A stretch of DNA of 64,000 nt from Victivallis vadensis (GTDB lineage: Bacteria; Verrucomicrobiota; Lentisphaeria; Victivallales; Victivallaceae): contig NZ_QEKH01000027.1 of assembly GCF_003096415.1 (NCBI RefSeq), positions 1-64,000 on the forward strand. The letters run 5' to 3'. Positions 33,571 through 56,505 of this stretch are shown one piece after another. A program made the position numbers and the translations under genes. A model generated the notes under the pieces. The model worked only from the letters and a program-made list of their open reading frames with translations. It was not told the origin of the DNA and made no database searches. Each line of letters begins with the position of its first letter. Positions within the stretch are counted from its first letter, which is position 1.

Positions 33571-34659
33571 CTACTTCACCTGCGGCAATCCCGGCAGCTC
33601 AATATTCTGATTCTGGCAGAGATTCAGATATTCGACCGTGGTGATGGCGGTGGTGCCGATCAGCAGCACGAAAGAGAGCGCGGCCAGAATCAGATAAGCC
33701 ATCGAGGGACGCGGCGCGTCTTCGTAGATCATCGCGGCCGGTTTGGCGGCGGGCGCCGGAGCCGGTTCCGGAGCTTTTTCGTCCTTCACGTTCAGCTCCT
33801 TGGCCGGTTCCGGAGCTTTGGGCGGCTCCGGATCGCGCTTCAGGTTCAGCCCGGAAGGCGGAGCCGGGGGGGCGGCCGGTTTCTTCGGCTGCGGCAGCTT
33901 TACGGTCGACTTGTCGTCTTCTTCGACAGCCGGGGAAAGGTCGGTCGGCATCACCACCGTTTTGTTGGTGCTGTTGTCGACCGGGACGGCACCCGGCTGG
34001 TTCGGCAGCATTACGGTCTTTTTACTCGGATCGACCGGCGCTTTGGCCTTGACCGGACGACTGATCCGGATGGTTTCGTCGTTCTCTGCGGCTTCCTCGG
34101 AAGTCTTGGGAGCGGCGAAAGTTTTCGGTGCGGGGGCCGCCGGCGCCGCGGGGGCGGCTGGTTGGCCGCCTACCTTGACGCTGGAGGGGGGCACGGCGGA
34201 AGGACGCAGCACCAGGGTTTTCCGGGTCTGGGTATTGGTGCCGGAATTGGGATCGGCGCCGGGTAATTTCACACTGGCGGGAGTTACGGCGGAAGGGCGA
34301 AGCACCACCGTTTTCCGGGTCTGGGTATTTTCTCCATCGACTGCTGCACCGGCGGCAGGTGCAGCCGATGCGGCGGGAGGAACCTCGGAGCCCTGAAGTT
34401 TGATCGGTTGATTGACAACCCGCTGCGGCGCAATCGGTTTGAGTTTGACGGTACGGCGCGTCTGGGTGTCTTCCAGGATTTCCAGATTACCGGTATCGGT
34501 ATCGCGGCCGGTCAGCGGGTCGGCGATCGGCGCTCCCGGAGTCGGCAGCTTGATCGAGGCCGGAGTCGTTGCGGAAGGCTTCAGCCGTACGGTTTTCCGG
34601 GTTTTGGTATCGTCACCGTCGTCCATACCCGCGTTTATTTTGATATCATCCTCGGCCAT
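33571..34659 (-). CDS. Thr-motif repeat protein with a C-terminal membrane helix
   Basis: A 362-residue low-complexity protein. It carries four copies of a block around [D/N]T[K/Q]TR[K/R]TVxLxPSA...SIKLP, then further short motifs with TVxL/TVxMP (SKKTVMLP, NKTVVMP, KSTVKLP), a Pro/Ala/Lys-rich region, and a single membrane helix near the C-terminus (PSMAYLILAALSFVLLIGTT) followed by a short tail. It is therefore a tail-anchored cytoplasmic Thr-rich protein or an inside-out anchored one. ATG 34659 follows AAAGGG. I know no function; the repeats look like Thr phosphorylation or FHA-binding sites, which is inference. Confidence 0.7.
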   Translation of the reverse strand: MAEDDIKINAGMDDGDDTKTRKTVRLKPSATTPASIKLPTPGAPIADPLTGRDTDTGNLEILEDTQTRRTVKLKPIAPQRVVNQPIKLQGSEVPPAASAAPAAGAAVDGENTQTRKTVVLRPSAVTPASVKLPGADPNSGTNTQTRKTLVLRPSAVPPSSVKVGGQPAAPAAPAAPAPKTFAAPKTSEEAAENDETIRISRPVKAKAPVDPSKKTVMLPNQPGAVPVDNSTNKTVVMPTDLSPAVEEDDKSTVKLPQPKKPAAPPAPPSGLNLKRDPEPPKAPEPAKELNVKDEKAPEPAPAPAAKPAAMIYEDAPRPSMAYLILAALSFVLLIGTTAITTVEYLNLCQNQNIELPGLPQVK

Positions 34660-34712
34660 CGTAAACCCTTTCTTCACCTTATTTCAGCTGAATATGCAAC
34701 TTGTCACAAAAA

Positions 34713-34777: not shown

Positions 34778-36163
34778 TCACTTGGTTTCGGCTTCCAGCC
34801 TCTCGATTCTCGCGGCGATATCTTCAAATTTCGGTTTTTTCTGGGCGATTTCCCGGTATTTGGCCAGCGCGTCTCCGCCGCGCCCGACCGCTTCGTAGGC
34901 GAGGCCGAGCGCATAGAGCGCGTCGTTCCGGAAGCGGTCGAGGCGGCTCATGGTTTCAAACTCTTTTTCAAGCATTGCAATCGCTTCTTCGGCGCGGTTC
35001 AGTCGAATCAGCGCTTTGGCGGAATAGGTCGCTCCGATCACCCGCTTCTGGTGGGTGCGCATCGCGTGTTCAAATTCCGTCAGGGAGGGTTCGTAATCGC
35101 CGTTTTCAAAATAACAGACGCCGAGGTCGAAATGGAGGTTGGGATCATTCGGATAGGCCTTGGAGCGGGCTTCGGATTTGCGGAGCCGGTAGGAAAGCTT
35201 CTCTTTTTCGAGGTCCTCAATCTGAGCTTCCGCATTTTCATAGGAGTCGGGATCGGCCTTGAGGGTCGCAATCGCCTGGTCGAGCTGCATCATATAGGCT
35301 TTCTCGATCTGCTTGTCCAGCGCGGGGTCGAGGGCGCCGAGCTTTTTGGCGACGATTTTCATCTCATTGATCGCGGCTTCATAGTTTTCGGCAACCATAT
35401 AAGCGTCGGCCAGCTTGCGCCGGATGTCCATCGAATCGTTTTCTTCGAGGTCTTTGGTGAATTTTTCGATCAGCACTTTCGCCTGGTCGGCGTCGTGAAT
35501 GGTGCCGTCGATCAACTGCTGGGTGACGGCGGCCTGACTGTCGGCGGATTTGCTCTGGGTGGTGCCTTCCTCCTCCCAGTTGCCGCGTTCGATGCTGGCC
35601 AGCGCGAGCGCGCTGCGCAATTCACCCTGCATGCCGAGGTCCTTCGGATTCTTTTTGGCGAGGTCCTGAAAGATTTTCAACGCTTCGCGGGCCTGGCCGT
35701 TGCGCTGCAGCGCTTCGACGAGGCGGCGGTTGTTGCCGTCGTTGTTCGGGTGGAAACGGTGGATGATCGACAGCGCTTCCGCCGAAGCGAAAGCGGCGTC
35801 GGCATCTTCCGCAGCATCGGCCAACGCGGTCAGGATCAGCGGATTGTCGACACATTTGGCAAGCGGCCCTTCGCACATCGCCATCGCTGCGAAGGGGTCT
35901 TTGACCGCCTTGAGCTTGATGAATGGAAAAGTGAAGACCGACAGGAAAACCCAGAACGCCTTGGCCAGCGGATTCTGCCGCATCGCCTTGTTGCATTCGA
36001 GCTCGCGCAGCTTGTCGCGCGCGACGCCGAAGTCGGGAATCGATTTGACCAGGTCCCGCAGGGTTTCCATCGCGTATCCGGGGTCTGCGACGGCACTGCT
36101 CAGGGCTTTGTTGTAGGCTTCCCGGGCGTAGATCGGCACCTTGCTCAACGGCTTGCGTTTCAT
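34778..36163 (-). CDS. tetratricopeptide-repeat protein
   Basis: A 461-residue protein starting MKRKPLSKVPIYAREAYNKA, made of TPR-like helical pairs (DPNLHFDLGVCYFENGDYEPSLTEFEHAM and RFRNDALYALGLAYEAVGRGGDALAKYREI-type units, cut here to show the pattern). A hydrophobic stretch about residues 66-86 (NPLAKAFWVFLSVFTFPFIK) may be one membrane helix or a buried core. It starts after AAGGAAG and follows a promoter at 36272-36300. TPR proteins scaffold other proteins; no partner is indicated. The gene lies 118 bases upstream of the Thr-motif repeat gene on the same strand and may be co-transcribed. Confidence 0.8.
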   Translation of the reverse strand: MKRKPLSKVPIYAREAYNKALSSAVADPGYAMETLRDLVKSIPDFGVARDKLRELECNKAMRQNPLAKAFWVFLSVFTFPFIKLKAVKDPFAAMAMCEGPLAKCVDNPLILTALADAAEDADAAFASAEALSIIHRFHPNNDGNNRRLVEALQRNGQAREALKIFQDLAKKNPKDLGMQGELRSALALASIERGNWEEEGTTQSKSADSQAAVTQQLIDGTIHDADQAKVLIEKFTKDLEENDSMDIRRKLADAYMVAENYEAAINEMKIVAKKLGALDPALDKQIEKAYMMQLDQAIATLKADPDSYENAEAQIEDLEKEKLSYRLRKSEARSKAYPNDPNLHFDLGVCYFENGDYEPSLTEFEHAMRTHQKRVIGATYSAKALIRLNRAEEAIAMLEKEFETMSRLDRFRNDALYALGLAYEAVGRGGDALAKYREIAQKKPKFEDIAARIERLEAETK

Positions 36164-36352: not shown

Positions 36353-39300
36353 TCAGTCAAGCAGATATTTCAGCTCGTCAATGGAGAGATTGACTCCCAT
36401 CGCATCCGGATTGTCGATCACGGAGTCGAAGATTTCACGCTTGCGTTCCTGCAGTTCGAGAATCTTTTCCTCGATCGAGTCCTTGACCACCAGCTTGACC
36501 GAACTGACCGCGCGGGTCTGGCCGATCCGGTGGGTCCGGTCGGCGGCCTGAAGCTCGACCGCCGGATTCCACCACGGATCGTAGATGATCACCGTGTCGG
36601 CGCTGGTCAGGTTGAGACCGGTGCCGCCCGCTTTCAGGCTGAGCAGAAAAAGAGGAATCTCCGGTGAATTGTTGAAGTGATCGACCCGCTCCTGCCGGTT
36701 CCGGGTGGAGCCGTCGAGGTATTCGAAGGGAATGCCTTCGGCGTTCAGCTCTTTTACCGTCAACGCGAGCAGGCTGGTGAACTGGCTGAACAGCAGCATC
36801 TTGTGATTGCTGTCGATGTTTTCGTGCAGCAGCTCGAAGAGCAGGTCGGTTTTGGCCGACGGAATCCCGTCCCCCTTGCCGTCCGGCAGCAGCGCCGGAT
36901 GGCAGCAGATCTGCCGCAGCCGCAGCAGCGTGGTGAATACGGTCGCGTTGCCGCGGGCGTCGCCCTCTTTGTATTTCGCAAGCTGGGCAAGCCCCTCCTT
37001 GCGGACCTTTTCGTAGAGGTCGCGCTGGGCGGGTTCCATTTCGCAGTAGAGCGCAAGTTCGGATTTCGGCGGCAGATCGGTCGCCACCTGCGCCTTGGTG
37101 CGGCGTTTGATGAAGGGGCCGATCCGGGCGGCGAGGTCCTGCTGCAGGGCGGGGTCTTCGCGCAGGTTCGAATAGGCGCGCCGGAAAGCGGGCAGCGTGC
37201 CGAGCATCCCCGGCTGCAGGAAATCCATGATGCTCCACAGGTCCTCGGGTGAGTTTTCCAGCGGCGTGCCGGAAAGCACGATCCGGTGGGCGGCCGCGAT
37301 GCTTTTGCAGTTTTTCGCGTTGGAGGAGCCGGGATTTTTGATATGCTGCGCTTCGTCCAGCACCAGAAAGCTGAAATTGCAGTGCTTGAGTTTGTCGGCG
37401 CTGAGCCGTGCCGCAGCATAGGAGAGGATCACCAGATCATACTCGTTGACCTCCTTGAACATATCGGCACGGTCGTGTCCGGCCGGAGCCGCCACCCGGA
37501 AGCCAGGCACGAATTTATGCGCCTCGCGCTCCCAGTTCGCAACCAGCGACGCCGGACAGACGATCAGGGCGGGCGGTGAACTTCTGAGCTTGCGCGACGC
37601 GAGCAGCGCGAGCAGCTGCACGGTTTTGCCCAGCCCCATTTCGTCGGCGAGGATCACGTTGAAATTCCGGTCGGTCATCCACTGCATGTACTTGACGCCT
37701 TCGGACTGGTAGCCGCGCAGTTCGCCTTCGAATCTGTAGTCGGGAGCCGCGTCGAAGCTGCGGGCGGCCGCCTCCGGCCCTGCCGCGATTTCCGGCACCA
37801 GCGCGCCCGGAATCTCGCGGACCAGATGCGTGAAATAGTTCGCCGCGTAGAACGGCACCTCAAAGGTGCGCCCCTCGGGATCGAGGCTGCGGATCACGTT
37901 GGCCGCCGCCGGGAAGAAAGCCGCCAGCGGCCGCGGTATCTTGATCATGCCGGCGCGCGGCAGCACCACGAAGTCGCCGCCCTGCTTCACGGTTTCGGCA
38001 CACAGCTTCCAATCGGCCGGAACTCCGGCGCCGGTCAGCGTGTAGCTGACCACATAGGCGTCCGGTTTGGTCAGAGAGAGGCGGCACTGGAACTCCAGCT
38101 CCGGCAGGCCGGAGGAGCCGCGGATCATTGCCGCGAGCCTGCCGCCGAGCGCCAGGCGGGGGTGCGCGACCATGATTTCGGGCAGGGCGCGGTCGAGGAA
38201 GGTGCCGATGCGCTCCGCGCCGTGCAATGCGGGCGTGTCGCCGTCGAAGTCGAAGCCGAACAGTGCAAGCTCGGTGTCGAAGCGGCGTTCGGCGTTTTCG
38301 TCGCGTTTCCAGAAATTCTTGCCTTCGCGGACCAGGTAGCCGGAGCCGGGTTTCTGCAGCGCGTGGCCGTAATCGGTTTCATAGAGGTAGTTCACCTCCA
38401 GCGTGAACTCGTTGGCGCCGGAGAGCTTCCCGTCAAGCAGGATGCCGGCGTCGCGGGTCGCGAGTTCGAGCGTGTCCACCGGCACCACCGGCAGCGGGAA
38501 GTTTTTCAGGAATTCCTCGACGCTGGTCCCCTCCGGCGGATTCTGGGCGCCGGAACGGAAGAAGTTGCGCAGCCAGCTGATTTCGCAGGTCGCCGGAATA
38601 AAGAAATACTCCCCCTCGCGACCGATCCAGCACCCTGCCTTGCCGGTGATCACCTTGGCTCCGGCGGTCGGCAGCCCCGCGCCGTTGACCCGGATGCCGG
38701 GCGACAGCACCGGTTTGCCCCGCCCGGATTGTTTGCACAGCAGCACCGCTTCGGCAAATTCGCCGCGCACGAGCAGTCGCCTGCCGTCCCGGGTGAAGCG
38801 CGGGAAGTTCACGAGGCAGTGGAAAAATTCGGCGGTCAGCTCCGCATTCAGCAGAATCTGCGAATTTTCCGCTTCGCCGTTGATTGCCAGGAAACGGATG
38901 ATCTGCTGCTCGTGCAGCGAGAAGTGTTCCAGCTTCAGCGTGACGGTCAATGATTTGTCGAAATAGAGCTGACGCAGGTTGTTCAGGTTGCCGAGGTATT
39001 CGCGGTCGGCGGTGCGCAGCTTGACCGCGAGCGTCGCATTCTCCCATTTGCTCGGCACGTGCGGAAACGCGGAAACCGCTTCGATGTTCAGCCGCGCCAC
39101 CGGAATCCGGGCGCGTTCGATCAGGTTCGGCAGGCTCTCCTGCTTGAGGCCGCCGTAATAGGTGGCGGCTTCGTTGCGGAGCGTATCCGGCTGCGGGGTG
39201 TGGAACCGGCCGGCGTACATGGTCAGCGCCACCGCATGCTCGCAGAGTTTGCCGTCTTTGAGCTTCTTTGAACGGCAGGTGCATTCGCAGGCGGAATTTT

Positions 39301-39478
39301 CGCCGGTCCGGAGCCGGGTGTCGACGGTGACGCCCGGAAGGCGGAACCGGCCGCACAGCCACTGCTCCCGGTCATGCCATGCTCCGGCCAGGCGGTCCTG
39401 CTTCAGCAGCTGTTTGGCCGCTTTCAGTTCTGCGGGGCCGGAGAGTTCTATCAGTCTGTCTTCAAAGCTCTTCTTCAT
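36353..39478 (-). CDS. SNF2-family ATPase with N-terminal SWIM zinc finger
   Basis: A 1041-residue protein. A SWIM-type zinc finger near the N-terminus (CECTCRSKKLKDGKLCEHAV, about 65-84) is followed by about 450 residues without a clear domain and then the SNF2 helicase core: ADEMGLGKTVQLLALLAS (Walker A), LVLDEAQHIKNP (Walker B), SGTPLENSPEDLWS, FKRRTKAQV, then the helicase-C motifs (LLFSQFTS, DGSTRN, SLKAGGTGLNLTSADTVIIYDPWWNPAVE, QAADRTHRIGQ; the longer string is shown in pieces). Such proteins translocate on double-stranded DNA and remodel protein-DNA complexes. ATG 39478 has GAGG at good spacing. Bacterial SWIM-SNF2 proteins are often of unknown role. Confidence 0.88.
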   Translation of the reverse strand: MKKSFEDRLIELSGPAELKAAKQLLKQDRLAGAWHDREQWLCGRFRLPGVTVDTRLRTGENSACECTCRSKKLKDGKLCEHAVALTMYAGRFHTPQPDTLRNEAATYYGGLKQESLPNLIERARIPVARLNIEAVSAFPHVPSKWENATLAVKLRTADREYLGNLNNLRQLYFDKSLTVTLKLEHFSLHEQQIIRFLAINGEAENSQILLNAELTAEFFHCLVNFPRFTRDGRRLLVRGEFAEAVLLCKQSGRGKPVLSPGIRVNGAGLPTAGAKVITGKAGCWIGREGEYFFIPATCEISWLRNFFRSGAQNPPEGTSVEEFLKNFPLPVVPVDTLELATRDAGILLDGKLSGANEFTLEVNYLYETDYGHALQKPGSGYLVREGKNFWKRDENAERRFDTELALFGFDFDGDTPALHGAERIGTFLDRALPEIMVAHPRLALGGRLAAMIRGSSGLPELEFQCRLSLTKPDAYVVSYTLTGAGVPADWKLCAETVKQGGDFVVLPRAGMIKIPRPLAAFFPAAANVIRSLDPEGRTFEVPFYAANYFTHLVREIPGALVPEIAAGPEAAARSFDAAPDYRFEGELRGYQSEGVKYMQWMTDRNFNVILADEMGLGKTVQLLALLASRKLRSSPPALIVCPASLVANWEREAHKFVPGFRVAAPAGHDRADMFKEVNEYDLVILSYAAARLSADKLKHCNFSFLVLDEAQHIKNPGSSNAKNCKSIAAAHRIVLSGTPLENSPEDLWSIMDFLQPGMLGTLPAFRRAYSNLREDPALQQDLAARIGPFIKRRTKAQVATDLPPKSELALYCEMEPAQRDLYEKVRKEGLAQLAKYKEGDARGNATVFTTLLRLRQICCHPALLPDGKGDGIPSAKTDLLFELLHENIDSNHKMLLFSQFTSLLALTVKELNAEGIPFEYLDGSTRNRQERVDHFNNSPEIPLFLLSLKAGGTGLNLTSADTVIIYDPWWNPAVELQAADRTHRIGQTRAVSSVKLVVKDSIEEKILELQERKREIFDSVIDNPDAMGVNLSIDELKYLLD

Positions 39479-39557
39479 GAAAATCCTCATTTTACTACAA
39501 TAAAACTTATTAAGATACTCCCGTTTCCCGGTATTTTCCAGTTTTTAGCGGCCGATA

Positions 39558-39587
39558 TTGGAAAAAAGTCCGAAGCGGGTGTATAGT
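39558..39587 (+). promoter_or_regulatory. promoter of the activase-fusion gene
   Basis: TTGGAA (39558-39563), 18-base spacer, TATAGT (39582-39587). The leader to ATG 39682 is about 88 bases. No good Shine-Dalgarno sequence lies close to the ATG; GGAGGCGG sits about 27 bases away, which is too far. Confidence 0.45.
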
Positions 39588-39681
39588 AATCATTACGAAA
39601 AATGAATAATTCAACAACAGGAACCGTCTTTTCCCGGCAGGCAGCAGGGAGGCGGTTCATTACCGAACTGGTTTTCTGTTT

Positions 39682-41766
39682 ATGGAAAAATTGTATCTGG
39701 GTATCGATATCGGCTCCACCACATTCAAAGCCGTGTTGATGAACGAGCGCGGCAAGGTCCGCCAGACGTTGTACCAGCGGACGAAGCCGGTTGATACCGG
39801 CCGGGTGCGCTGCGCCGGGGTCTGCGCCAAATGCGGTGCGTGCAACTTCGGCCAGTTGCGTCAGACGGTCGACAGGTTCCTGCTCGACGCGGGATTGACC
39901 GGGATGGAGCAGATTGACTGCACGGTGGTGACCGGCAGCCAGATCGTCGAGGATACCGCGGATTTCGTCCCTTATGATTTCCGGGTTAGCGAAGTAACCG
40001 CGCATGTGGCGGGCGCCCGCCACTATTATCCCGACTGCAAGGCGATCCTCGACGTGGGCGGGCAGGACAGCAAGGCGATGGTCTTCAACGACCGCATGAA
40101 AATGTGGAACTACAAGATGAGCGGCATCTGCGCCGCCGGCACCGGCGCTTTTCTGGACAGCGTCGCGGTGAAGCTGAATGTGCCGGTCGAAGAGATGGCC
40201 GACCGCGCCAACTACGACAGCAATCTTGAGTTTTCCTCGGTCTGTGCGGTGCTTTCGGCGACCAGCATCAACAAATTCAAAAACCGGTTCCCGATGGGGG
40301 ACATCATCGGCGGGGCCTGCCGGGCGCAGGCGCGCACGATCATGTCCGGCGTCGGCGAACTTTTCCTCGGCTACAAAGGGGATATCGTATTCCAGGGCGG
40401 CGTCGCGTACAACCGCGCGGTCGCCTACTACCTTAAGGAAATCACCGGCAACAACATCATCATCCCGGAGTTTCACGGAGTGATGGGGGCGCTCGGCGCC
40501 GCCTGTCTCGCGCTGCAGTTCTCGGAACTCAAAGGCAAGCTCGATCCCGAAGCCGGCCTGCCGCCCGCGACCCGGCACCTCGCTTCGGTGGACCTGCGCG
40601 CCAAGGCGACCCGCCGTGATTTCCTCGGCCACGGCAAGGAGCCGCTGGTCTGGCGGAATCTGTTCTTCCCGACCGAAGTGCTGAATGCGCTCGGGGTGCG
40701 TTCCCTGACGCTTGAAACCTATGCGGCGCTCTTCGCCCGCAGCCAGCACAAGGTCAAAAAGGCGTTCGACAAGGCGGCCTGCAAGGGCTTCTCCGGCGAA
40801 ACCTGCTCCTTTTTGCGGGTGCTCGAAGGAGTGCAGCTTCCGGCTCCGGCGTTCGGCGTTTCGACTTCGCAGCCGTGCCAGCAGGGGGAGCGGATTTTCC
40901 GCGACCTGGCGCGCACCTACGGCGCGAGCGACAAGTTCTTTTCGCTGCAGACTCCGGCGGTCGGCGAGGCCGAAGGGGATATTACCCTTGAACATCTCGC
41001 CGAGGAGCTGGAGCGTTCGGTGCGGCTGATGGAGAAATCCCTGGGCCTTAAGATGGATCCGGCGAAGCTGGCCGAAGCGTGCGAGCACTCCAACGAGGCG
41101 CGGCACTACTCTCTGCTCTGCAATGAGTTGCGCCACAGCAGCCCGCCGCTGATCCGGGGCGGGCAGGCGATCTATTTCGCGACGATTTTCAGCCAGCTCT
41201 GGGGAAGGCCCGAACTGACCGCGATCCAGAAAACGCTGTTCGAGGAGTTGCGGGCGATCCGCGACGAGATCGGCGACTCGGTGAAGCTTGAGGACACCCA
41301 CCGGCTGCTGTGGCTGCATCTGCCGCCGTTCTACGACAGTTCGCTGCTGGATTACATCGAAGTCAAGTGCAAGGCGCCGATCGTGTTCGAGGAGGTCAAC
41401 TTCGTCGGCTGGGAGCCGCTTGACCCGAAGGACCCGTACCGGTCGCTGGCGCGCAAGATCCTGACCGTCGGCTTCATGGATCCCGCGCTGCGGGTCGAAA
41501 CGATTGTGGAGAATGCGCCGAAGGTTCACTACAACGGCTGCATCCTGTACAACCACGGCTTCGGCCGCTGCTCGATGGCGGACAGCTCCTTCATCAAGCA
41601 TCTGCGCGAGGAGCTGAACAAGGCGGCGGTTCCGCTGCTGGTGCTCGACGGCGACTGCGTGGACACCACGATCGACCCGTGCAGCACGGAAACCAAGATC
41701 AGCGCCTATGTCGAGGCGCTGAACGAACAGAAATACGGCAACATTTTCGGGCGGCTCAAAGCGTAA
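39682..41766 (+). CDS. 2-hydroxyacyl-CoA dehydratase activator fused to an HgdB-like domain
   Basis: A 694-residue fusion. The first 280 residues form an ASKHA ATPase of the BcrAD/BadFG/HgdC type: GIDIGSTTFKAVL, DVGGQDSKAM, and Cys150 (SGICAAGTGAF) and Cys188 (SSVCAVLSA) spaced as in the activators that hold a [4Fe-4S] cluster at the dimer interface. The rest resembles the HgdB/HgdC-partner dehydratase fold, ending with NGCILYNHGFGRCSMADSS and PLLVLDGDCVD. Activators use ATP to drive electrons to a low potential, and the partner would receive them. Related proteins reduce small molecules with a double-cubane cluster. Substrate unknown. Standard activators are about 260 residues and free, so the fusion is notable. 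Confidence 0.78.
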   Translation: MEKLYLGIDIGSTTFKAVLMNERGKVRQTLYQRTKPVDTGRVRCAGVCAKCGACNFGQLRQTVDRFLLDAGLTGMEQIDCTVVTGSQIVEDTADFVPYDFRVSEVTAHVAGARHYYPDCKAILDVGGQDSKAMVFNDRMKMWNYKMSGICAAGTGAFLDSVAVKLNVPVEEMADRANYDSNLEFSSVCAVLSATSINKFKNRFPMGDIIGGACRAQARTIMSGVGELFLGYKGDIVFQGGVAYNRAVAYYLKEITGNNIIIPEFHGVMGALGAACLALQFSELKGKLDPEAGLPPATRHLASVDLRAKATRRDFLGHGKEPLVWRNLFFPTEVLNALGVRSLTLETYAALFARSQHKVKKAFDKAACKGFSGETCSFLRVLEGVQLPAPAFGVSTSQPCQQGERIFRDLARTYGASDKFFSLQTPAVGEAEGDITLEHLAEELERSVRLMEKSLGLKMDPAKLAEACEHSNEARHYSLLCNELRHSSPPLIRGGQAIYFATIFSQLWGRPELTAIQKTLFEELRAIRDEIGDSVKLEDTHRLLWLHLPPFYDSSLLDYIEVKCKAPIVFEEVNFVGWEPLDPKDPYRSLARKILTVGFMDPALRVETIVENAPKVHYNGCILYNHGFGRCSMADSSFIKHLREELNKAAVPLLVLDGDCVDTTIDPCSTETKISAYVEALNEQKYGNIFGRLKA

Positions 41767-41866
41767 CGCCCGGTTGAAACAGTCATACAAGGGGGAAAGG
41801 CGCAGCGTTCGGGAAATTGGTCCGAAGCTGGGCCTTTCCGCGTGAAACGGAGAGGAAGAAGCAATC

Positions 41867-42217
41867 ATGATCAGACGCAGTGGAGAATACCGTACCGAAC
41901 AGCGCGAAGAGATGCGCGGCGGCAAAGGCACCGTTACAATCGAACATTTCTGGGAACCCAAAACCGAAATGCGCTCCCATACGCGGATGTGCGCCAAGCT
42001 GACCATTCCGCCGGGCGGTTCGATCGGCTTTCATCCGCACGACGCCGAGGAGGAGATTTTCGTGGTGATCCGCGGCACGGCCGAAGCCGACGACAACGGC
42101 GAGGTGGTGCAGCTCGGCGTCGGCGACACGCTGCTGACCGGCAACGGCGACGGCCATGCGATCCGCTGCACCAGCGAGGAGCCGCTGGAACTGCTCGCTG
42201 TGATTGCAACCTATTGA
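41867..42217 (+). CDS. small cupin-domain protein
   Basis: A 116-residue single cupin domain: SIGFHPHDAEEEIFVVIRGT supplies the His-x-His...Glu metal residues of cupin motif 1, and VGDTLLTGNGDGHAIRC supplies motif 2 with its Gly and His. It likely binds a divalent metal. GAGAGGAAG precedes the ATG. It lies between the activator fusion and lysA on the same strand with about 100 bases to the former and 18 to the latter. Enzyme or sensor role cannot be told. Confidence 0.8.
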   Translation: MIRRSGEYRTEQREEMRGGKGTVTIEHFWEPKTEMRSHTRMCAKLTIPPGGSIGFHPHDAEEEIFVVIRGTAEADDNGEVVQLGVGDTLLTGNGDGHAIRCTSEEPLELLAVIATY

Positions 42218-53577: not shown

Positions 53578-53835
53578 GATATGGATTCTCCTCTTGATTG
53601 ATCCTCTCGCGATCCGTGCGGACGGACCGCGTTTACCGTTACAATATACCGTTTTGCGGAAAATGCCAATCGCCTCCCGGAGAAAAGTTTCCGGGACCGG
53701 GAGGGGGCGGCGGAAATCGGCCGATTTTTTCCGGAAAGATGTGGCGGCGGCGGCGAAAATGCGCTATATTGTAAAATAACCCTTTCGCTGTTTCAGACAG
53801 CCAATGGCAATTCAATCAACAGGAGCATGGATATA

Positions 53836-55263
53836 ATGGACCGATATCAGGAACTTCACGCGAAACTCGCCGCCGCCGGACAACAGCAGCTGCTGCGCTT
53901 CTGGTCGCAGCTCGACGCCGATCAGCAGGCCAGGCTGGCCGGTCAGCTCGACGACATCGATTTCGCCGAACTGGAAAAGCTGATCAAAGAGTATGTGCTG
54001 CTGCGGCCGAAAACGCAGATCCCGGAGGATCTCGGCCCGGCCCCCTATTTCCCGCTGGTTCCGCGCGACGAGGAGCAAAAGGCGCTTTACGCGAAGGCGC
54101 AGGCCCGCGGCGAAGAACTGCTGCGGGCGGGACGGGTCTGCTGCCTGACCGTCGCGGGCGGACAGGGGACGCGGCTCGGCTTCGACGGCCCGAAGGGGAC
54201 CTATCCGATCGCGCCGGTGACCGGCAAGACGCTGTTCCAGTATTTCGCCGAATCCATTCTGCGCACCGGTGAAAAGTTCGGCTGCCGGCTCACGTGGTAT
54301 ATTATGACCAGTCTGCTGAACCGCGAGGCGACCGAGGCGTTTTTCAAGGAGCATGCGTTTTTCGGGCTGGCTCCGGAGCAGGTGTTCTTTTTCACGCAGG
54401 GCACCATGCCCGCGATCGGCTACGACGGCAAGCTGCTGCTGGCGGAAAAGGATTCGCTGTCGCTCTCTCCGAACGGTCACGGCGGCACGCTGCTCGCGCT
54501 GCGCAAATCCGGCGCGCTGGCCCGGATGGAGGCGGAAAAGACCGACTGCATCTCCTACTTCCAGGTGGACAACCCGCTGATTCCGGTGGTGAATCCTTTC
54601 TTCCTCGGCATGCACGATCTGGAAAAATCCGAAATGAGCGCGATCATGCTGGCCAAGACCGGCCCGTTTGAAAAGCTCGGCAACTTCTGCGTGACCAACG
54701 GCCATCTGGAGATCATCGAATACAGCGACCTCCCGGCGGAACTCGCCGAAAGCCGCAATCCGGACGGCACGCTCCGGTTCATCGCGGGCAGCCCGGCGAT
54801 TCACATGATCTCGCGCGCTTTCGTCGAAAAACTGACCGCCGGCGGCAGCCTGAAACTGCCGTGGCACCGCGCCGACAAGAAGGTGCCGTTCGTCGATGAA
54901 GCCGGCAATCCGGTCAAACCCGCCGAACCCAACGCGGTGAAGCTGGAATCCTTCATCTTCGACGCGATGCCGCTCGCCTCCAGAACCATGGTGCTCGAAG
55001 GCAAACGCGAGGACCTCTTCGCGCCGACCAAGAACCCGACCGGCGTGGATTCGGTCGAGAGCTGCCGCGCGATGCTGATCGACCGCGACGCGCGCCGCCT
55101 CGAAGCGGCCGGAGTCAAGGTCGCCCGCGACGCCGAAGGCAAGGTCGCCGCCGAAATCGAGGTTTCGCCGCGCGCGGTCTGCGACGACGCGGATGCGGCC
55201 GAATACGTGAAGGCGCACAACCTGCGCGAAGTCGCCGCCGGAGCCAGGCTCTATTTCGAATAA
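53836..55263 (+). CDS. UDP-sugar pyrophosphorylase (UAP/UGP-type, UDPGP family)
   Basis: Makes a UDP-sugar from UTP and a sugar-1-phosphate; the eukaryote-like UDPGP family covers UDP-glucose and UDP-N-acetylglucosamine enzymes. It has 475 residues with CLTVAGGQGTRLGFDGPKGT at the nucleotide loop, a UTP-binding segment SLSPNGHGGTLLALRKSG, YFQVDNPLIPV and the conserved FVEKLTAGGSLKLPWHRADK. The start is ATG 53836 because AGGAG would be only 1 base from ATG 53827. It precedes ftsW and murG, so UDP-N-acetylglucosamine for the cell wall is likely. Confidence 0.82.
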   Translation: MDRYQELHAKLAAAGQQQLLRFWSQLDADQQARLAGQLDDIDFAELEKLIKEYVLLRPKTQIPEDLGPAPYFPLVPRDEEQKALYAKAQARGEELLRAGRVCCLTVAGGQGTRLGFDGPKGTYPIAPVTGKTLFQYFAESILRTGEKFGCRLTWYIMTSLLNREATEAFFKEHAFFGLAPEQVFFFTQGTMPAIGYDGKLLLAEKDSLSLSPNGHGGTLLALRKSGALARMEAEKTDCISYFQVDNPLIPVVNPFFLGMHDLEKSEMSAIMLAKTGPFEKLGNFCVTNGHLEIIEYSDLPAELAESRNPDGTLRFIAGSPAIHMISRAFVEKLTAGGSLKLPWHRADKKVPFVDEAGNPVKPAEPNAVKLESFIFDAMPLASRTMVLEGKREDLFAPTKNPTGVDSVESCRAMLIDRDARRLEAAGVKVARDAEGKVAAEIEVSPRAVCDDADAAEYVKAHNLREVAAGARLYFE

Positions 55264-55275
55264 GGGGACGAAGCC

Positions 55276-56505
55276 GTGGTCAAGCCGTTTCTGAATGACG
55301 AACTCTCGCTGGTGACCGATCCCGACCAGGATACGACCGGAGCCATGAACATGGCCTACTGGCTGCTGATCGTGGCGGCTGCGCTGGTGGTGGGAGGATT
55401 GACCATGCTCTATTCGGCCAGCTTCAACACCGCCGGGTTGAAATTCTTCCGCAACCAGCTGATCTGGGTGGGAGCGGGGGTGTTCGGCGGCGGCGCGGCG
55501 TTCCTGATCGGTTACCGCAAGCTCGCGAATGCGTCGGTGGTCTGGATGGCGCTGTCGTTCATATTGCTGATGGCGGCGCTCTGCTTTCCCGCCGTGAACG
55601 GCGCGAACCGCTGGATCCGCTTCCGGCTGCCGGGGCTGGAGATGAGCCTGCAGCCTTCCGAGTTCGCGAAGATCGCGGTGGCGCTGTTCGTCGCGAAATA
55701 CTGCGCGGACAATATGCGCACCTTCAACGAGTGGAACAACCGGCGCGGCATCCTGCCGCTGGCGGGCGTCACCGGATTGGTGATTCTCGGCATTCTGGCC
55801 GGACGCGACCTCGGCACCACCGTGCTGGTCGGCTCGATGGCGACGCTGACGCTGCTGGCCGCCGGGCTCTGGAAGCGGTATATCCTCGTGCCGATCGCCT
55901 TTGCGGTGCTGATCGGCACTTACATCTTCTTTCACGACCCGACCCGGGTGGCGCGGGTGACTTCGTTCCTGCGGCCGGAGGAGGTGCAGAGCACCTCCGG
56001 CTACCAGCTGTGGAATTCGCTGCTGGCCTTCGGCTCCGGCGGCTGGAACGGCATCGGCTTCATGGAGAGCCGCCTGAAGGCGAAATACCTGCCGGAAGCC
56101 CATACCGACTTCATTCTCGCGATCGTCGGCGAGGAACTGGGGCTGATCGCGATGCTGGCCGTGATCGTCGCCTATGCGGTGTTCGCGGTCTGCGCGCTGA
56201 AAATCAGCCTGCGGTCGCATTCGCGGCTCGGGATGCTGCTCGGTTTCGCGCTGACGCTCGGCATCGTGCTGCAGGCGGCGATCAATATGACCGTGGTAAT
56301 CGGCGTGGCTCCGACCAAGGGGATGCCAGCGCCGTTCATCAGTTACGGCGGCAGCAATATGATGGCGACGCTGATCGCGGTCGGCATTCTGGTTTCGATC
56401 GCCGCCGACACCGCCGAACCCGGCTATAACGAACGATACCGGAACTCCCTGCGGCGGAAGCTCTCCTTCCTGCCGTGGTTCCGGCAATACCGCGACGGGG
56501 AGTGA
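55276..56505 (+). CDS. ftsW: FtsW-family peptidoglycan polymerase (SEDS)
   Basis: A multi-pass membrane protein of 409 residues that polymerises lipid II, as FtsW with PBP3 or RodA with PBP2. It has about ten helices and the SEDS signatures NGANRWIRFRLPG, QPSEFAKIAVAL, AEVGEELG-type HTDFILAIVGEELG and PTKGMPAPFISYGGS. A GTG start follows the UDP-sugar gene by 12 bases. Placement beside murG, as in the division and cell-wall cluster, favours FtsW over RodA. Confidence 0.9.
   Translation: MVKPFLNDELSLVTDPDQDTTGAMNMAYWLLIVAAALVVGGLTMLYSASFNTAGLKFFRNQLIWVGAGVFGGGAAFLIGYRKLANASVVWMALSFILLMAALCFPAVNGANRWIRFRLPGLEMSLQPSEFAKIAVALFVAKYCADNMRTFNEWNNRRGILPLAGVTGLVILGILAGRDLGTTVLVGSMATLTLLAAGLWKRYILVPIAFAVLIGTYIFFHDPTRVARVTSFLRPEEVQSTSGYQLWNSLLAFGSGGWNGIGFMESRLKAKYLPEAHTDFILAIVGEELGLIAMLAVIVAYAVFAVCALKISLRSHSRLGMLLGFALTLGIVLQAAINMTVVIGVAPTKGMPAPFISYGGSNMMATLIAVGILVSIAADTAEPGYNERYRNSLRRKLSFLPWFRQYRDGE

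Follow-up and report, generated by a model that had tools for sequence, protein, structure and literature searches.

The Threonine-Motif Gene and Its Product

The window, meaning the whole 64,000-nucleotide stretch of Victivallis vadensis DNA analysed here, encodes on its reverse strand a protein in which the motif T[VI]x[LIM], often with proline at +5, is repeated up to one conserved helix and a short tail. The features concerned are the following.

33571..34659 (-), gene for the Thr-motif tail-anchored protein, 362 aa, ATG start at 34659; homologues exist
34576..34608 (-), long motif 1, TKTRKTVRLKP, residues 18-28
34432..34530 (-), conserved block DPLTGRDTDTG...DTQTRRTVKLKP, containing long motif 2 (34435-34467); E 2.4e-19, alignment A2
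34294..34326 (-), long motif 3, TQTRKTVVLRP, residues 112-122
34201..34233 (-), long motif 4, TQTRKTLVLRP, residues 143-153
34054..34074 (-), related short motif TIRISRP, residues 196-202; T196 and R201 nearly invariant in alignment A1
34003..34026 (-), short motif SKKTVMLP, residues 212-219
33946..33966 (-), short motif NKTVVMP, residues 232-238
33892..33912 (-), short motif KSTVKLP, residues 250-256
33616..33702 (-), single C-terminal membrane helix, residues 320-348, from AlphaFold2 and hydropathy
33574..33615 (-), C-terminal tail, residues 349-362, from alignment A6 and the tail search
34778..36163 (-), gene for a TPR-repeat protein (Pfam TPR), the conserved partner, upstream of the motif gene across a 118 nt gap

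The coordinates given for the motif gene in an earlier sequence-only reading are correct for the ATG start, and the listing of open reading frames also holds an alternative GTG start at 34677. The layout described in that reading, with four recurring blocks, three shorter TVx[LM]P motifs and a single C-terminal helix, was confirmed on the 362-residue product. The four long motifs follow the pattern TxTR[KR]T[VL]xL[KR]P and start at residues 18, 65, 112 and 143, and the three short ones start at residues 212, 232 and 250. The blocks do recur, but not as the near-identical 20-mers that had been described, their common part being a core of about 11 residues: an ASVK-like extension is seen after blocks 1, 3 and 4 but not after block 2, and the core of block 4 has leucine where the other three have valine. 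The pattern T.TR[KR]T[VL] is present in four copies, and one copy or more arose in only 12 of 100,000 shuffles of the protein. No match to the product was found in Pfam (E 0.1), NCBIfam or PHROGs. A role of the motif as a tag used throughout the genome was considered and rejected, as within its own genome it is carried by this open reading frame alone, bar one 14-column match with an E-value of 3.3. A promoter and terminator scan performed no better than on shuffled sequence, and a plasmid search gave no match.

Predicted Disorder and Membrane Topology

An AlphaFold2 model of the 362-residue protein, built on a 20-row alignment, has a mean pLDDT of 51.6 and a single helix at residues 320-348, with pLDDT values of 84-91 across residues 321-350; before residue 320 there is neither a helix nor secondary structure of any other kind. 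Hydropathy analysis gives one hydrophobic segment, from residue 316. The approximately 310 residues ahead of the helix, which bear the motifs, are predicted to be disordered. The conserved QYLN...IxLP tail comprises the end of the helix and C-terminal residues 349-362 (alignment A6). Weak Pfam matches of single members among the 20 proteins of alignment A1 (BLOC1S3 and others) are scattered and, like a PDB match with an E-value of 0.011, look like matches of composition or of the membrane helix.

Relatives were compared in a set of 66 non-redundant tail-bearing proteins, drawn from 101. By hydropathy, 65 of the 66 have exactly one hydrophobic segment and none has one within the first 60 residues, so that a single C-terminal helix without an N-terminal signal, as in tail anchors, is found across the set. 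The helix is followed by 14 residues in the window protein, and the hydropathy peak by a median of 25 in the 66 relatives. Since the disordered region ahead of the helix has no signal peptide, a cytoplasmic placement of the motifs is the default that we infer; the net charge differs little between the two sides of the helix (mean +0.4 before and -0.2 after, 66 relatives), so the topology is not firmly set.

Family and Distribution

Homologues carrying the motif, on whose existence the sequence-only reading had made its proposal depend, were recovered by profile and alignment searches, and the protein belongs to a real, unnamed family; a literature search, conducted mostly without subscription papers, found no description of it. 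With the window protein as query (E <= 0.01), matches were obtained in 31 of 61 genomes, comprising 30 of the 37 from the window's own taxonomic family (f1, that is Victivallis and its kin, with the window's own genome included) and one of the 24 others. This is an undercount, as two unmatched genomes (G012 and G025) have diverged copies adjoining the TPR gene. In genus g17, a dense TRRTVKL/TRKTVKL array lies beside the TPR gene at two loci (L261 and L262), in genomes that were negative in the same search (G024 and G036). A contig scan with the single window protein found no relative, probably owing to poor conservation of its peptides. An alignment-based scan of species genomes returned 73 pattern matches, 50 of which encode a relative. 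Where the records of these 50 are named, they are assigned to Victivallis, Victivallaceae, Victivallales, Lentisphaeria or Lentisphaerae/Lentisphaerota. One TV-rich peptide ascribed to Verrucomicrobiae, searched as an exact DNA pattern, was found in 0 of 240 genomes, which leaves the presence of such strings there unsupported.

A 33-residue motif block occurs in 40 of 240 genomes of the phylum (35 in f1, three in f4 and two in f10, a family of the same class), whereas the profile of the C-terminal helix and tail matches 96 of 137 genomes of the order (66 in f1, 26 in f4, three in f2 and one in f7, a split counted by hand from the rows). The tail is therefore the wider family mark within the order, the motif-rich form is nearly restricted to f1, and the TxTRKTV elaboration is mainly a trait of that family. 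More distant members have TIKLKP, TIQLKKP or TIKPV strings in place of TxTRKTV, and the length of relatives varies from about 250 to 850 aa.

Chemistry of the Repeated Motif

Across the 66 relatives, T[VI]x[LIM] was observed 397 times against 25.0 in shuffled sequences (15.9-fold), with a mean of 6.0 copies per protein and a range of 0 to 14, and the form with proline at +5 was counted 198 times against 3.7. When serine replaces threonine, the count falls to 32 against 18.0 (1.8-fold), or 2 against 2.4 with proline at +5, while valine (14 against 18.3) and isoleucine (0 against 8.5) show no enrichment, which means that a plain beta-strand former will not do at this site. The excess of aliphatic [LIM] residues is largest at +3 (659 against 252.1, 2.6-fold), with depletion at +2 and +4. 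Taken together, these counts indicate that the site calls for threonine itself and for an aliphatic residue at +3. The same holds for the threonine in 17 relatives from outside f1 (99 against 6.6 for the motif, 2 against 5.5 for its serine version), and 17 other genes of the window, used as a control, have no such bias (11 against 8.4).

The persistence of the motif bears on what the disordered stretch is for. It might serve mainly as a spacer or crowding brush, the working part being the C-terminal helix with its QYLN...IxLP tail and the Thr motifs being secondary; the wider spread of the tail compared with the TxTRKTV block would fit this, as would the variable length of the relatives. A spacer, however, would have no reason to keep a 16-fold enriched, threonine-specific motif that is also present in 17 distant relatives, and we regard this explanation as quite unlikely. 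Sequence around the motif bears in a similar manner on a direct binding of nucleic acid or acidic lipids by basic TRKTVKLKP segments. In 123 cores collected with a regular expression from f1 members, the core positions of DTxTRKTVKLKP are strongly kept (the arginine having been imposed by the search expression itself), and the flanking lysine and arginine residues of f1 would suit such binding. Nonetheless, the residue just ahead of the long motif is aspartate in 90 of the 123 cores, and distant relatives (TIQLKKP, QTIKLAPK) have other residues in place of the basic ones at -2 and -1 but retain T, [VI] and [LIM], which makes this explanation very improbable.

A preference for threonine with an aliphatic +3 residue is what recognition by phosphothreonine-reading FHA domains would select. 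FHA domains are described as binding phosphothreonine and mostly not phosphoserine (PMC6509490), with selectivity exerted through the pT+3 residue and with pTxx(M) and pTxx(V) among the reported motifs (PMC5549992). Explanations of the strict threonine requirement other than phosphothreonine and FHA recognition are possible.

The TPR Gene and the Slot After It

The TPR gene upstream of the motif gene is a conserved, phylum-level gene, its profile being found in 199 of 240 genomes of the phylum, nearly always once. The AlphaFold2 model of its product is an all-helical solenoid with a mean pLDDT of 86; a fold search with this model returned generic TPR solenoids, and the protein takes no family name beyond generic TPR models. 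The gene lies directly upstream of the motif gene in 42 of 50 loci, with a gap of up to 187 nt; in the remaining loci it is 4.4 kb away in one and not found in seven, one of them with almost no upstream DNA. The linkage is not obligatory, since the flanks of seven of the 50 motif loci lack a TPR gene. In a further 20 motif loci, drawn largely from the same genomes as the 50, the TPR gene is adjacent in 13, at 4.4 kb in one and not found in six. The conserved neighbour is a TPR protein, which the sequence-only reading did not mention.

Short extended peptides are bound by the grooves of TPR domains. The main rival to a phosphorylation-based function is that the unphosphorylated motifs are bound as short linear peptides by the TPR protein or by some other partner, and that the strip in this way brings several TPR solenoids to the membrane. 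Both the position of the TPR gene as conserved neighbour, directly upstream in most motif loci, and the predicted solenoid fold of its product speak for this. Yet the TPR gene is far more widespread in the phylum than the motif block (199 against 40 of 240 genomes), indicating that its main role needs no motif, and tail-bearing relatives from f4 keep the Thr motif with no TPR gene in the flank fetched (among the 20 loci fetched, it was present only in L253, L254, L261 and L262). Moreover, a ligand for a TPR groove might tolerate serine, valine or isoleucine, residues that are not or hardly enriched at the site. On balance, this rival appears rather unlikely.

A set of 50 other TPR loci of the phylum, outside the first motif-locus set (40 in L154-L193 and 10 in L282-L291), was also considered. 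In seven of them (L154, L159, L160, L165, L167, L290 and L291) a Hanks-type kinase gene lies directly downstream of the TPR gene on the same strand, and in the other 43 no kinase was found in the flank. The pairs come from all five genomes of f3 and both examined genomes of f11, so that the linkage may represent only one or two evolutionary events. Pfam confirmed the kinase domain in the three TPR-linked kinases scanned. A C-terminal extension shared by several of the TPR-linked kinases (A5) was found in seven of 61 genomes (five of f3, one of f5 and one of f7) and in none of the 37 of f1, and the flanks fetched around the f5 and f7 kinases that bear it contain no TPR gene. A C-terminal TerB-like domain on the TPR-linked kinases was considered; Pfam TerB matched one of the three scanned at 23.7 bits, slightly below the cut-off of 24.4, and only the shared extension is therefore named. 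The slot after the TPR gene thus varies between lineages: in f1, and in the f2 genomes fetched (L155, L253 and L254), it is occupied by a Thr-motif or Thr-rich tail protein. This slot provides the sole genomic connection between the motif protein and a kinase, and the connection is indirect.

Kinases and FHA Domains

A Ser/Thr kinase gene conserved nearby, for which the sequence-only reading had proposed to look, was not found: in the flanks examined, none lies beside the Thr-motif gene in any of 70 motif loci (two sets that overlap in genomes), and the 13 kinase and 4 FHA matches of the window's own genome all lie on other contigs than the window. All 61 genomes examined have kinases and FHA domains, whether or not a relative of the Thr-motif protein was detected in them, and Hanks-type kinase matches number 3 to 35 per genome; as both are universal in this set, their co-occurrence with the motif protein carries no weight. 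Literature searches, again mostly without subscription papers, showed no mapped kinase substrate for this bacterial group. One kinase of the window's own genome (L277, 1168-3486 (+)) has an N-terminal stretch with three imperfect repeats around DEIxAxxV, which are possibly its own Thr sites.

Proposed Function and Related Systems

The view that the repeated threonines are targets of a kinase or an FHA domain is thus strengthened by the strict requirement for threonine with an aliphatic +3 residue and weakened by the lack of a linked kinase at the 70 motif loci; the TPR-kinase linkage in sister families adds to it, and it is still a matter of inference. A membrane-tethered, disordered array of Thr-phosphorylation and FHA-docking sites is our best explanation of the motif protein, with a probability of roughly one half. 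The protein would be an intrinsically disordered docking strip tethered to the inner membrane, with its disordered part facing the cytoplasm, where the cell's Hanks-type Ser/Thr kinases would phosphorylate the motif threonines. FHA-domain proteins would then bind the pThr-x-x-Leu sites, and the count of phosphorylated copies would set the number of partners gathered at the membrane. The co-encoded TPR protein may be part of the same assembly, as adaptor or client.

A broader proposal, which is tentative and rather doubtful, is that of an order-wide Lentisphaeria family of tethered phosphothreonine arrays in which the number of T[VI]x[LIM] motifs (0-14) would serve as an adjustable count of FHA sites. 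In f1 the array would form a two-gene unit with the phylum-wide TPR protein. The position downstream of the TPR gene is taken by a kinase in some families and by this candidate kinase substrate in others, and the two would accordingly stand at alternative places of one pathway. If the docking reading is true, a single gene supplies a ready kinase substrate that has seven or eight predicted sites and brings its own prediction, threonine only and an aliphatic residue at +3, for cultured Victivallis. The relatives would constitute a natural series, from 0 to 14 motif copies, on how multi-site phosphorylation sets membrane recruitment in bacteria, and a role would be indicated for the TPR gene, which most of the phylum retains.

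SQ/TQ cluster domains are disordered, contain multiple threonines and are read by Rad53-type FHA domains. The motif protein resembles them in its many Thr sites along a disordered chain and in the FHA reading proposed here, and differs in its motif, T[VI]x[LIM], in being bacterial and in its membrane anchor. Among bacterial proteins, MapZ of Streptococcus pneumoniae is phosphorylated on cytoplasmic threonines (T67 and T78) by the Ser/Thr kinase StkP (PMC7055233). Both proteins combine a disordered N-terminal domain (predicted in the window protein, cytoplasmic in MapZ) with one membrane helix, and a similar mode of working may be proposed, with a kinase-targeted disordered cytoplasmic part on a single helix. 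In contrast, MapZ has a folded extracellular domain where the window protein has just 14 residues after its helix, and MapZ has two mapped phosphosites and no repeated Thr motif (PMC7055233), whereas the window protein repeats its motif.

TssL of the Agrobacterium type VI system is described as an inner-membrane protein with a cytoplasmic N-terminal domain, in which one N-terminal threonine is phosphorylated in dependence on the Ser/Thr kinase PpkA and then bound by Fha (PMC3953482). This TssL-PpkA-Fha mechanism is the one that would, by analogy, operate on the window protein. TssL, however, carries a single site and combines an IcmH/DotU-type domain with a periplasmic peptidoglycan-binding domain, for neither of which the window protein gave a Pfam match. 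The window protein is a member of neither the MapZ nor the TssL/DotU family.

Other Genes in the Window

Pfam (E 0.001) gave no match for the products, of 839 and 891 aa, of two large open reading frames of the window at 39487-42006 (-) and 53812-56487 (-). Upstream of the TPR gene, 36353-39490 (-) encodes an SNF2-family helicase with a sub-threshold match to a SWIM zinc finger, and an SNF2-family helicase gene is found near the motif and TPR genes in several related loci as well.
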